In this document: positions 18,610 to 32,314 of the stretch, in pieces
How the letters are laid out: each line of letters begins with the position of its first letter
Numbering within the stretch: position 1 is the first letter of the stretch
Notes under the pieces: model-generated
Told to the model about the DNA's origin: nothing
What the model saw: only the letters and a program-made list of their open reading frames with translations
Databases searched by the model: none
Translations under genes and position numbers: made by a program
Source: Bacteroidota bacterium
Lineage (GTDB): Bacteria; Bacteroidota; Bacteroidia; Sphingobacteriales; Sphingobacteriaceae
DNA length: 35,350 nucleotides
Reading direction: 5' to 3'
Assembly: GCA_016868395.1 (NCBI GenBank)
Contig: VGGW01000005.1
Coordinates: 1-35,350 of the forward strand

Positions 18610-19161
18610 ATGGAACAGATAAAAACTTATATCGACGATCTGAAAAAGACGCTTGACAGCTTGAATATTGTGGATATTCAGCATGTTGCAGATACTTTTC
18701 TCAAAGCAAGGGACAATAACAAGAAAATAATATTTTTCGGTAACGGTGGTAGCGGATCCACTGCTTCCCATTTTGTTTGTGATCTTAATAAAGGATGTTC
18801 GTTTGAAAAGAATAAGAAATTTAGGGCTCTATGTCTGAACGACAATATCGCAACGATTCTTGCTTATGGAAACGATGTCAGCTATAATGTTATTTTCGTT
18901 GAACAATTAAAAAATTTTATGGATCCTGGTGATGTCGTTGTTGGTATTTCGGGAAGTGGGAACTCTAAAAATATCATCGAGGCCATAACGTACGCAAATA
19001 ACAATGGTGGAATAACTGTTGGCTTAACAGGATTTAATGGAGGAAAGCTAAAAGAAATTGCTGAGCTGTCAGTAAATGCAAATATAAATGATATGCAGAT
19101 TTCTGAGGATATTCATGTGATTATTATGCACATCCTTTACAAACTTTTAAGTAATAAATAA
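18610..19161 (+). CDS. gmhA: Sedoheptulose 7-phosphate isomerase (GmhA-like SIS protein)
   Basis: A 183-residue single SIS-domain protein, close to the GmhA length. It carries IIFFGNGGSGSTASHFVCDL (about 41-60), ILAYGNDVSYNVIFVEQL (about 88) and VVGISGSGNSKNIIEAI (about 113). The C-terminal ISEDIHVIIMHILYKLL matches the end of E. coli GmhA (QEVHIKVIHIL), including the catalytic histidine region. It should convert sedoheptulose 7-phosphate to D-glycero-D-manno-heptose 7-phosphate, the substrate of the kinase domain encoded at 16093. The GmhB phosphatase needed between those steps is not in the window. Confidence 0.85.
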   Translation: MEQIKTYIDDLKKTLDSLNIVDIQHVADTFLKARDNNKKIIFFGNGGSGSTASHFVCDLNKGCSFEKNKKFRALCLNDNIATILAYGNDVSYNVIFVEQLKNFMDPGDVVVGISGSGNSKNIIEAITYANNNGGITVGLTGFNGGKLKEIAELSVNANINDMQISEDIHVIIMHILYKLLSNK

Positions 19162-19175
19162 TCTCGGATATAACT

Positions 19176-20150
19176 TTGCAATCTTCTAAGGATAATATCC
19201 ATATTCAATATCGACCAGATGTAGACGGTCTGAGAGCTATTGCTGTTCTGTTGGTTGTTGGGTTCCACGCTTTCCCTGAATTAATCCAAGGTGGCTATAT
19301 CGGAGTCGATATTTTTTTTGTTATCTCCGGGTTTCTTATTACAACAATCATTTCTAAAAACCTCCGGAATGAAACGTTTACAATAAGAGATTTCTACGCT
19401 CGCCGTATCCTTCGAATATTTCCGGCACTTTTACTCATATTGATATTCTGTTGGGTAGCTGGGTGGTTTTTGCTTCTTCCAGATGAATATAGTCGATTAA
19501 GTGTTCAAATCTTGGCAGGGACTGCTTTTTTTTCCAATATTCTTTTTTGGATACAAGGGGGCTATTTCGATCTCGCATCAATATCAAAACCACTACTTCA
19601 CCTCTGGTCTTTGGGAATTGAGGAGCAATTCTATATATTTTATCCGCTATTATTATTCGTAGCCTGGCGCCGATCCTATAATATATTGCGTATTTTGTTT
19701 GTTCTTATCCTAATATCTTTATCCTTAAATCTATATTTTGTAATTTGCAATGAGATAATTGTTAAGATAGGCTCAATCGATTTCATTGTTTCTAACACAT
19801 TTTATTCCCCTTTTACGCGTTTTTGGGAATTAATGGTTGGGGGGGGGGTGTTAGCGTTAAATAATCATCCTAGGATAATTGCTAATAAATTCTCTCAATC
19901 AACTTATCATATTTCGTCCTTTTCAAATGCTCAGTCATTATTGGGAGTTACACTAGTTGTTTCCTTTCTCGCTTTCTATCCTTATAATAATAGCGAAAGC
20001 CAAGCAGGGGCTTGGATGCTTTTACCGGTCATAGGCGCTTATCTATTAATCTCAGCTGGTCCGGATTCATGGTTTAATAAGCAAGTACTATCATCCAGGT
20101 TGTTTGTTTGGTTAGGTAAAATCAGTTACCCATTGTACCTTTGGCACTGA
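19176..20150 (+). pseudogene. Acyltransferase-3 half of a broken OafA-like O-acetyltransferase
   Basis: The 324 codons to the TGA at 20148-20150 encode the membrane half of an OafA/YrhL-type transferase. It shows YRPDVDGLRAIAVLLVVGFH (with the catalytic-type His), GGYIGVDIFFVISGFLI, FYARRILRIFPALL, LHLWSLGIEEQFYIFYPLL and FWELMVGGGVLAL. It stops after SYPLYLWH, exactly where the family has a tryptophan (SYPLYLWHWPLL). So TGG has become TGA, a single-base nonsense change. In the same frame the codons after the stop read PLLSFIFI and continue into the SGNH half with no further stop. The start is TTG 19176, the only start near the conserved RPDVDGLR. It may still be a stable truncated protein lacking the last membrane segment(s). 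A G10 tract sits inside it. Confidence 0.85.
19839..19848 (+). repeat. G10 homopolymer inside the O-acetyltransferase gene
   Basis: Ten consecutive G bases encode Gly-Gly-Gly plus the first base of a Val codon in FWELMVGGGVLAL. The neighbouring sequence is AT-rich and no other G run of this length is in the window. Loss or gain of one base would shift the frame. Such tracts are known slippage sites in phase-variable surface genes of other bacteria; here that role is inference. Confidence 0.9.
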
Positions 20151-21206
20151 CCGCTTCTCTCCTTTATTTTTATAACGGATTCACGTAATGAGTCTTGGCA
20201 ACTCAAGTTCGCGATTGTCATAATTAGTATCCTGTTGGGTTGGATTACTTTTCAATTCCTTGAAGTTCCTTTACGAAAGATAAAGAGTAGCAAAAAGAAA
20301 ATTGTGGCTCTTTGCACAGGTATGGCAATTATAGCTATCATCTCCTTAATTACTATTCGAATGAATGGTATACCGAATCGAACTGATGAAATTTACAACA
20401 CAGGGGTCTTCGTGGAAAAGGCACATATTTCCCCGGATGAAACTGCATCTGCTAATGCAAAGGCATTTAACGGTATACCACATCTGTCTCGTGCAATGAA
20501 TACAAATGATCCTACAATTGCACTGGTTGGCGATAGTCATGCTCAGCATTTGTTCGCTGGGCTGGATGTTCATTATAAATTAACAACTGAAAATCTTTTT
20601 CAATTTGACGCTTGCACTCCTATGAATGTAAATTTGGTGGAAAGTGACAAAATTTTTGACTGCTCACAAAACGCTGAAGAGGTTTTTGGATATATTTCAA
20701 AGTCAAAAACGATACATACAGTCATACTTTCCTGGTATGGACAAATGATGTTCAGTGGTGGAAGATACAATCAGAAGACATATAGGTCGGTAAGATTTAA
20801 AGACAATCCGATTATAAGGAATAATGAAGAAATTTATATTGAAGGTTTAAAGCGTACAATTGAATATTTGGAACAAGCAGGGAAAAAAGTCATTTTGGTT
20901 TTGGACAACCCTGATTTGGGATTCAATCCACTTAATGATCTGAGACCTGTTAGTTTCTTTTATTCGGATTCTGATAAAAAAGGTGTTCTTCCGGTCAGTG
21001 ATTACAAGAAATATACAAGCCTATACAAATCCAGGATCTATATGATGCTGAGGGAGTTTCCAGGCACCAAAGTGTTTGATCCGAGCCAATTTCTTTGTGA
21101 TTCTATATATTGTTATGGCATAAAAGATGGGAAACTACTATATTTCGATCCTGATCATTTAACTTATGATGGAAGTGTGTTTTTAGGCAGAAACTTCCCT
21201 TATTAA
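20151..21206 (+). pseudogene. C-terminal SGNH-hydrolase half of the same broken O-acetyltransferase
   Basis: This reading frame continues directly from the TGA at 20148-20150 without a frame change. It gives a last membrane helix (SILLGWITFQFLEVPLRKI) and an extracytoplasmic SGNH-type domain. That domain has IALVGDSHAQHLFAG (GDSH block I with the nucleophilic serine, about 20517-20561) and FDPDHLTYDGSVFLG near the end (DxxH block V). In intact OafA-like proteins (about 650-680 residues; 676 codons here including the stop) this domain finishes acetyl transfer to the glycan in the periplasm. Re-initiation at a TTG (20235) could give a separate 323-residue protein with one membrane anchor, but no strong start is visible. 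The remaining residues look intact, suggesting the loss is recent. Confidence 0.8.
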
Positions 21207-21239: not shown

Positions 21240-22166
21240 ATGACTCTTAGAAAATCTTCTTTATCTCTGGGAGTAATTTTGTCTCTTATTATTCTTTTTC
21301 CATGGGAGGCTATTACACCAGGGAGATTCGAAGACCTGGCTTCCTATAGGCTAAATCTGGAGATGGATACTCCACCTGATTTGGCACAGTTTGAATCCCC
21401 TATAATTTTTTTATTCAGGGAGGTGCTTTTTCAGAAGTGGCTCTTCACCGTTTTCGAATCTAGCCAGGACGTTGAACTTACCTTGTTTATAATCGCTTCT
21501 GTAACTATAGTTATTTTCTTTTTCGCATTAAAAAGATTAAAAATTGATTACAGGCTTGCCATATTTTTTCTTAACCCTCTAATAATCGACTTTTTTAATG
21601 CCCAACTCAGGAACTCGCTTGCCTTATCCTTATTTCTACTTGGATATGGGGCAAAGCGAAAGCTGTTCAAGTATTTTTTTATCGTTTTAAGTGTTTCGCT
21701 GCATTTGGGATTACTGATATTGGTTGTAGTATATTTCCTTGCTGTTTTTCTAAAAAACAGAATAAAGAATCGCACTCTCCAGATTATATCACTGACTATG
21801 GCAGCTATACTTTTTGGTTTTGGCGATAAAATATTTTTCTCACTGATTAATGATCGGAGAGCGAATATTTACTCCAGTAGCAACGGGATGTCCGTAATTT
21901 ATTTTTTATGGGCTTGCTGCCTTTTCGCGTGTATCTTCGTTATTAAGAAAAGAGATCAGAAAAGTACCTTGAATATTGATTTTGCCTTTATCGGATCCCT
22001 CCTTATTGTACTTGCATATTTCTCCGGTGCCTATTATGGTCGGTATCTTGCGATGTTCTTTCCATTCATCATTTTGTCCATTGGAACATTTGATTTCAGA
22101 AAGCCAGTTATTTGGGTGATGTCGTTTTATTGTTTTTATACTTTTGTCATGAATTTTGTTTTTTGA
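21240..22166 (+). CDS. EpsG/Wzy-like polysaccharide polymerase (membrane)
   Basis: A 308-residue very hydrophobic protein with roughly eight or nine membrane segments, including VELTLFIIASVTIVIFFFAL, YFFIVLSVSLHLGLLILVV, IIYFLWACCLFACIFVI and FAFIGSLLIVLAYFSG. The stretch FFNAQLRNSLALSLFLLGYG (about 119) matches the EpsG-family pattern in which an Arg precedes a helix of small residues. YYGRYLAMFFPFIILSI near the end gives a second positive periplasmic-loop residue. EpsG/Wzy proteins polymerise undecaprenyl-linked repeat units on the periplasmic side. It is the only polymerase candidate in the window. It is a little shorter than typical (about 350), mainly at the N-terminus. Confidence 0.75.
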   Translation: MTLRKSSLSLGVILSLIILFPWEAITPGRFEDLASYRLNLEMDTPPDLAQFESPIIFLFREVLFQKWLFTVFESSQDVELTLFIIASVTIVIFFFALKRLKIDYRLAIFFLNPLIIDFFNAQLRNSLALSLFLLGYGAKRKLFKYFFIVLSVSLHLGLLILVVVYFLAVFLKNRIKNRTLQIISLTMAAILFGFGDKIFFSLINDRRANIYSSSNGMSVIYFLWACCLFACIFVIKKRDQKSTLNIDFAFIGSLLIVLAYFSGAYYGRYLAMFFPFIILSIGTFDFRKPVIWVMSFYCFYTFVMNFVF

Positions 22167-31401: not shown

Positions 31402-31569
31402 CCCTGTAGTCGGTGTTCTCACCCTACCCCTGCCCTGTAGTCGGTGTTCTCACCCTACCCCTGCCCTGTGGTCGGTGTTGTCACCGTACCCCTGTGGTTG
31501 CCCTGTGGTTGGTGTTATCACCATACCACCTCCCTGTGGGTGCCCTGTGGTCGGTGATCTCACCATACC
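31402..31569. repeat. REP-like array upstream of rayT, five hairpin units
   Basis: Five copies of a 27-base unit start at 31402, 31433, 31464, 31501 and 31543. Each reads CCCTGTRGTCGGTG, a 4-base loop, then CACCNTACC, with small variations, so each can fold through GGTG/CACC. The first three are an exact 31-base tandem period; later spacing widens to 37 and 42. The units are in the same orientation. A reverse-complement unit lies on the other side of the transposase gene. This is the arrangement expected for REP sequences served by a RayT. Confidence 0.88.
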
Positions 31570-31660
31570 ACCTCCCTCCACCATATTCCGAATTCTCAAT
31601 CTTAGCTACCGCTTACTAATTACCCAAAAAAATTATTAGTCACTGGGTATAAGTTTAACC

Positions 31661-32173
31661 ATGAATCACGGAGACATGGAATTCTTCACTGTCACCTGCC
31701 TAAATTGGCAGACCTTACTTGATGAAGACAAACACAAACAGATAATCCTTGACAGCCTTGAATTTTTGGTCAAGGAGGAACGGATATGGCTCTATGCATA
31801 TGTAATTATGCCAAACCATATGCATGTACTTTGGCGCAAGCGTAACGACTGGATTGAAAAAAATGTTCAGCAGAATTTTCTCAAATATACCGCACAACAA
31901 ATTAAGTTCAACTTGCTTGATAACAATCCAAATGTACTGGCTAAATATACGAGTACACAAGGTGACAGGCAGTTTCATTTCTGGGAGCGAAGGGCCTACA
32001 GAGCCAGAATATTAACAAGAGCTGTGGCTGAACACAAAATAGATTATATACATTTCAACCCTGTTAAGGCTGGATATTGTAAACTGCCGGAGGAGTATTT
32101 ATTCTCTTCAGCCCAGTACTACTTTTTGAACCAAGGCAATCCTCTTCTTACTCATTACATGGAGCATCTTTGA
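31661..32173 (+). CDS. rayT: RayT: REP-associated Y1 (IS200/IS605-like HUH) transposase
   Basis: A 170-residue TnpA_REP-type protein. The HUH metal motif is PNHMHVLWRKRNDW (about 51). The C-terminal RayT signature is KIDYIHFNPVKAGYCKLPEEY (about 127), with the likely catalytic tyrosine just before HFNPVKAG and FSSAQYYF after it. It has no IS-type terminal inverted repeats. Instead it is flanked by REP-like hairpins of one family on both sides, five upstream and a complex array downstream in opposite orientation. RayT proteins cut and rejoin single-stranded REP hairpins and are usually domesticated, single-copy genes. Here it sits between two glycan genes and is transcribed with them, although its own promoter cannot be seen. 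Confidence 0.9.
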   Translation: MNHGDMEFFTVTCLNWQTLLDEDKHKQIILDSLEFLVKEERIWLYAYVIMPNHMHVLWRKRNDWIEKNVQQNFLKYTAQQIKFNLLDNNPNVLAKYTSTQGDRQFHFWERRAYRARILTRAVAEHKIDYIHFNPVKAGYCKLPEEYLFSSAQYYFLNQGNPLLTHYMEHL

Positions 32174-32187
32174 GCCTGAGCTGTGAT

Positions 32188-32314
32188 AGGCTGGTACGGT
32201 GTTAGGCTGATACGGTGTTAGGCTGGTACGGTGTTAGACTGGTACGGTGTTGACTGGTACGGTGACAACACCGACCAGAGGGGACACCGACCAGAGGGGA
32301 CACCGCCCGGAGGG
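32188..32314. repeat. Downstream REP-like array with separated, tandemly repeated arms
   Basis: Four 16-base copies of AGGCTGGTACGGTGTT (32188, 32204, 32220, 32236) are followed by one full hairpin centred on 32252-32281 (CTGGTACGGTG, loop ACAA, CACCGACCAG). After it come two 16-base copies of ACACCGACCAGAGGGG type and a shortened third. The left block repeats the reverse complement of the right arm of the upstream units; the right block repeats the reverse complement of their left arm. The whole block can form one nested imperfect hairpin. Confidence 0.85.

Follow-up and report, generated by a model that had tools for sequence, protein, structure and literature searches.

In Salmonella, the O-antigen acetyltransferases OafA and OafB combine an AT3 (Acyl_transf_3, PF01757) membrane domain with an SGNH domain (PF19040) in a single protein. 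The AT3 part is defined by the motifs R-X10-H, RXXR and SXXXY, the last of which is assigned to helix 9 in OafB (PMC9833829), and OafA with Ala in place of E325 retains about 5% activity (PMC7448272). In systems of the PatA/PatB kind, a complete membrane domain is paired with a separate SGNH protein. Members of the family are not always intact in sequenced genomes: in Haemophilus influenzae the surface AT3 gene oafA carries a frameshift in strain Rd and undergoes phase variation in other strains (PMC9558356). Here we describe an AT3-SGNH gene that is interrupted, as assembled, by a single in-frame TGA. This codon is most likely either an error, of the assembly or of a single base, or a nonsense mutation that is real, recent and due to chance, and no new biological device; both readings are ordinary.

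An interrupted AT3-SGNH gene in a surface-polysaccharide cluster

The gene lies in a contiguous stretch of 35,350 nucleotides (the window) of a Bacteroidota draft genome, G000, which comprises 2.99 Mb in 320 contigs and is 96.75% complete with 3.42% contamination. Its neighbourhood is a surface-polysaccharide gene cluster, with glycosyltransferases around it (Table 1). The frame runs from 19176 to 21206, with the TGA flanked by SYPLYLWH and PLLSFIF, and stays open past that codon until a TAA ending at 21206. TTG at 19176 is the sole common start codon upstream of the conserved YRPDVDGLRA, and no ATG is found there. The part upstream of the TGA matches PF01757 (E 1.8e-25) as far as position 286 of the 326 in the profile, and when the whole genome was searched with the same profile the match crossed the TGA and reached position 322. 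The downstream part matches PF19040 (E 3.8e-33) and, by profile, PDB 6SE1; a Foldseek search against the PDB returned nothing at E ≤ 0.001, the best weak matches being SGNH/PatB-type esterases. Motifs are intact on both sides, namely R-X10-H (R20-H31), RXXR (R77-R80) and SXXXY (S317-Y321) in the AT3 part and GDSH (452-455) and DPDH (658-661) after the TGA. The original prediction, of an in-frame TGA in an OafA-type gene whose frame to 21206 keeps its GDSH and DxxH motifs, was thus borne out.

With an AT3 domain and its motifs, a fused SGNH domain and a Glu after transmembrane helix 10, the gene has the features of OafA/OafB-type AT3-SGNH proteins apart from a single uninterrupted frame, and as assembled it is an interrupted member of that group. 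The best explanation of the gene itself is an ordinary, horizontally variable O-acetyltransferase of this type. Judging from the family and from the surrounding glycan genes, its enzyme would probably acetylate a surface glycan, with the AT3 membrane domain carrying acetyl from acetyl-CoA across to the SGNH domain, which would transfer it to the glycan.

Table 1. Features of the interrupted locus and lesioned genes found elsewhere in G000. Positions are those of the window unless a contig is named.
Feature	Position	Strand	Basis or lesion
SIS-domain sugar isomerase, upstream neighbour	18610..19161	+	Pfam SIS_2/SIS
AT3 (Acyl_transf_3) part; truncated product 324 aa	19176..20147	+	ORF list, PF01757 match
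Run of ten G within AT3 coding part	19839..19848	+	sequence
In-frame TGA, residue 325, inside predicted transmembrane helix 9 (residues 317-334)	20148..20150	+	sequence, alignment, model
Remainder of frame: end of helix 9, helix 10 (341-368), E363, helix 11 (373-395), SGNH	20151..21206	+	PF19040, alignment, model
EpsG-family (polymerase-like) membrane protein, downstream neighbour	21240..22166	+	Pfam EpsG
YifB-family ATPase			internal stop TAG
MltD-like transglycosylase	L258 (contig 47) 7491		internal TGA, Trp in congener
ComF-like protein			internal stop TAA
4-TMS holin-like protein			internal stop TAG
FabK/nitronate monooxygenase-like protein			internal stop TAG
MsbA-like ABC transporter			frameshift, indel in A run
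ECF sigma factor			frameshift

Elsewhere in the window, GC-rich tandem arrays (31402-31577, 31661-32173 and 32183-32314) flank a 170-aa ORF on both sides. This ORF has no Pfam match at 0.001, and we take it to resemble a REP-associated transposase from its IMPNHMHVLW motif. An Rfam scan of the window gave no match.

The residue at the stop and the parts beyond it

Adding to the interrupted frame 24 AT3-SGNH homologues (overall identity 23-38%) taken from other genomes gave an alignment of 25 sequences. At the column of the TGA, 16 of the 24 homologues carry Trp, including all five closest (L034, L035, L036, L037 and L041), and the others carry F, Y, Q, N or H. Of the neighbouring positions, L322, H324 and P326 do not vary, and W323 hardly does; judged by the alignment, the truly conserved Trp is this preceding W323 of LWH and not the position of the TGA. 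Trp would be the best guess for the ancestral residue at a site that is not invariant. The original prediction had spoken of a conserved tryptophan, which holds in that Trp is the majority residue and that of the closest homologues, but not in the sense of an invariant position; that one substitution suffices to create the stop is likewise supported. None of the 19 congeneric genomes has the orthologous locus, and homologues in other genomes reach at most about 42% identity over long stretches, making a comparison of the codon with close relatives impossible. Searches of plasmid and viral contigs found distant homologues only.

An AlphaFold2 model of the frame with the TGA read as Trp, built on the 25-sequence alignment (mean pLDDT 82.9, pTM 0.85), places residue 325 in helix 317-334, which bears SXXXY. 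According to the model, truncation would remove the remainder of helix 9, helix 10, E363, helix 11 and the whole SGNH domain. E363, the counterpart of OafA E325, is invariant across the 25 aligned sequences. If the TGA is real, the protein would terminate within transmembrane helix 9 and the enzyme would be dead.

These observations bear on the idea, raised in the original prediction, of a functional split, in which an AT3 fragment and an SGNH fragment would cooperate as two proteins in the manner of PatA/PatB. In favour of it, the frame after the stop is open throughout, with an in-frame TTG (20235) and ATG (20322) from which a second protein might start. However, the predicted break falls within a helix of the AT3 fold, not at a domain boundary, and it removes helix 10 together with the Glu whose Ala mutant in OafA retains so little activity (PMC7448272). 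None of the homologues retrieved is divided at this place, and in contrast to PatA/PatB-like systems the membrane domain ahead of the stop is incomplete, with helices 10 and 11 lying beyond it. A cut inside helix 9 combined with the loss of E363 makes a working two-piece enzyme unlikely; a split at a domain boundary was rejected on the model and on what is known of these residues, and we consider a functional split highly improbable.

Lesions across the assembly and the origin of the stop

In a fragmented draft, one in-frame stop is not enough to declare a gene lost or split until the frequency of lesions throughout the assembly has been taken into account. We compared about 1.1 Mb of G000 by tblastn, in both directions, with 1.6 Mb of a congener, G015, whose genome is well assembled, in about 10 contigs. 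Across 399 G000 genes aligned to G015 (138,083 residues, median identity 73%), five had a clear internal in-frame stop and two were frameshifted, while in the reverse comparison none of 403 G015 genes had a clear lesion (7 vs 0 lesioned genes, Fisher p 0.007, with this one relative as the reference). The flagged positions in G000 are L125:16000, L258:7491, L247:13885 and 17802, L249:10326, L116 at about 7950 and L133 at about 2000. Three G000 candidates that were unclear or near presumed 5′ ends (L255:13231, L117:15396 and L133:2267) and one flagged G015 stop in a presumed 5′ extension were left out. The lesioned genes carry one lesion each, with mixed stop types, and are of about average conservation (median identity near 73%). 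At five stops per 138,083 residues, 0.41 stops are expected in the 11,216 codons of the window, with a probability of 0.33 for at least one; at about one in three, the TGA is not exceptional as a chance event.

The occurrence of similar lesions in unrelated genes raises the probability that the TGA is an error or a chance lesion; the original prediction had named sequencing error or recent nonsense, and both are supported as explanations. We put at about even the chance that the draft, a noisy one, is wrong here, through a base or assembly error or through strain mixing. The TGA would then be one of many single-base interruptions across the assembly and most likely absent from the main population of the organism. 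In line with this, the lesions are single, scattered over conserved and unrelated genes, and of mixed kinds, one of the frameshifts lies in an A run, and the frame and motifs past the TGA are undamaged. The second AT3 gene of G000 (L090, contig 127, 1963-3125, minus strand) is also frameshifted, with two overlapping frames and an apparent one-base indel near 2660. Contig number and contamination point the same way, as do the runs of nine or more G, of which the genome has only seven, five of them no more than about 120 bases from a contig end. The run of ten G in the interrupted gene itself, in principle hypermutable, might allow slippage or mark a place where the assembly is unreliable; poly-G phase variation was rejected as the cause of the stop, since the run keeps the reading frame and the TGA is a substitution distinct from it. 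Against an error, none of the broken genes is certainly essential, so that recent loss of dispensable genes fits equally well; no second lesion came to notice in the window's main ORFs; and AT3 genes are truly broken or phase-variable in some species, as in H. influenzae (PMC9558356), two fused homologues from other genomes being broken as well.

The same facts lend weight to a recent, real nonsense mutation, to which we assign a somewhat less than even chance, and by which the strain or population would make a truncated AT3 protein without helices 10-11 and the SGNH domain and would lose this glycan O-acetylation. All the congeners searched lack the gene, which is hence dispensable and variable; genes for surface-glycan acetyltransferases are naturally prone to loss (PMC9558356); and the intact sequence past the TGA implies that any loss is recent. 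Nevertheless, conserved genes across the assembly carry single lesions in excess, which makes an error as likely. If the TGA is real, one acetyl decoration has probably disappeared from the surface polysaccharide of this strain, as often happens in other bacteria. By itself the observation matters little.

Recoding of the TGA (as selenocysteine or under a code in which TGA is Trp) has in its favour that Trp is expected at the codon. It is contradicted by the decoding apparatus and by stop usage: the genome has no selB above the cut-off, encodes RF2, and has a CCA anticodon in the sole tRNA-Trp among the 25 tRNAs found (an incomplete set), none of which has a UCA anticodon, and TGA terminates 7 of 28 genes in the window. 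TGA is a normal stop in this genome, and recoding was rejected as having virtually no likelihood.

The tRNA-Trp(CCA) of the genus (L147, 1500-1571, and L169, 11859-11930, both on the minus strand) has a U11:A24 pair in the D stem and a G27:U43 wobble topping the anticodon stem. Such features have been linked in E. coli to the reading through of UGA, which the Hirsh mutation G24A of tRNA-Trp promotes there (PMC13092985). Low-level readthrough, in which this tRNA would misread the UGA (next base C), insert Trp and yield a little full-length enzyme, would agree with the Trp of the closest homologues, with A24, the state made by the Hirsh mutation, and with the second Trp-to-TGA interruption, in the MltD-like gene. 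However, G015 has the same tRNA-Trp arms, and among its compared genes there is neither an internal TGA nor any other clear internal stop; the arms are therefore a trait shared in the genus and do not show that readthrough is used. RF2 and the ordinary use of TGA as a terminator also count against it, the other lesions are mostly TAA or TAG at non-Trp codons, and nothing indicates selection for readthrough. We regard low-level readthrough as very improbable, and slightly more so its stronger form, in which programmed or tolerated readthrough by the A24 tRNA-Trp would keep a low level of full-length protein and the stop would act as a dimmer of glycan acetylation.

Comparison with intact and broken members of the family

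Two AT3-SGNH homologues are interrupted in other genomes: that of Sphingomonas lacusdianchii (L082) has a frameshift, and that of E. coli plasmid pHL15EC-2 (L166, 2986-4863) has two in-frame stops in the SGNH part. The plasmid homologue is annotated as two genes and is adjoined by holin and lysozyme-type genes on a phage-like plasmid, to which a second plasmid (L167) is near-identical.

The interrupted gene shares its domain order with Salmonella OafA/OafB, as well as the motifs R-X10-H, RXXR, GG-F/Y-XGV-D, SXXXY, the Glu after helix 10, GDS and DxxH, but its frame is broken by a TGA in helix 9. Like H. influenzae oafA, it is an AT3 glycan acetyltransferase gene that is off in one sequenced genome, with intact copies elsewhere; unlike the phase-variable oafA, its lesion is a nonsense codon, although an in-frame G10 run is present. 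In the Sphingomonas and plasmid homologues, the same family is interrupted at other positions, by lesions independent of the one described here.
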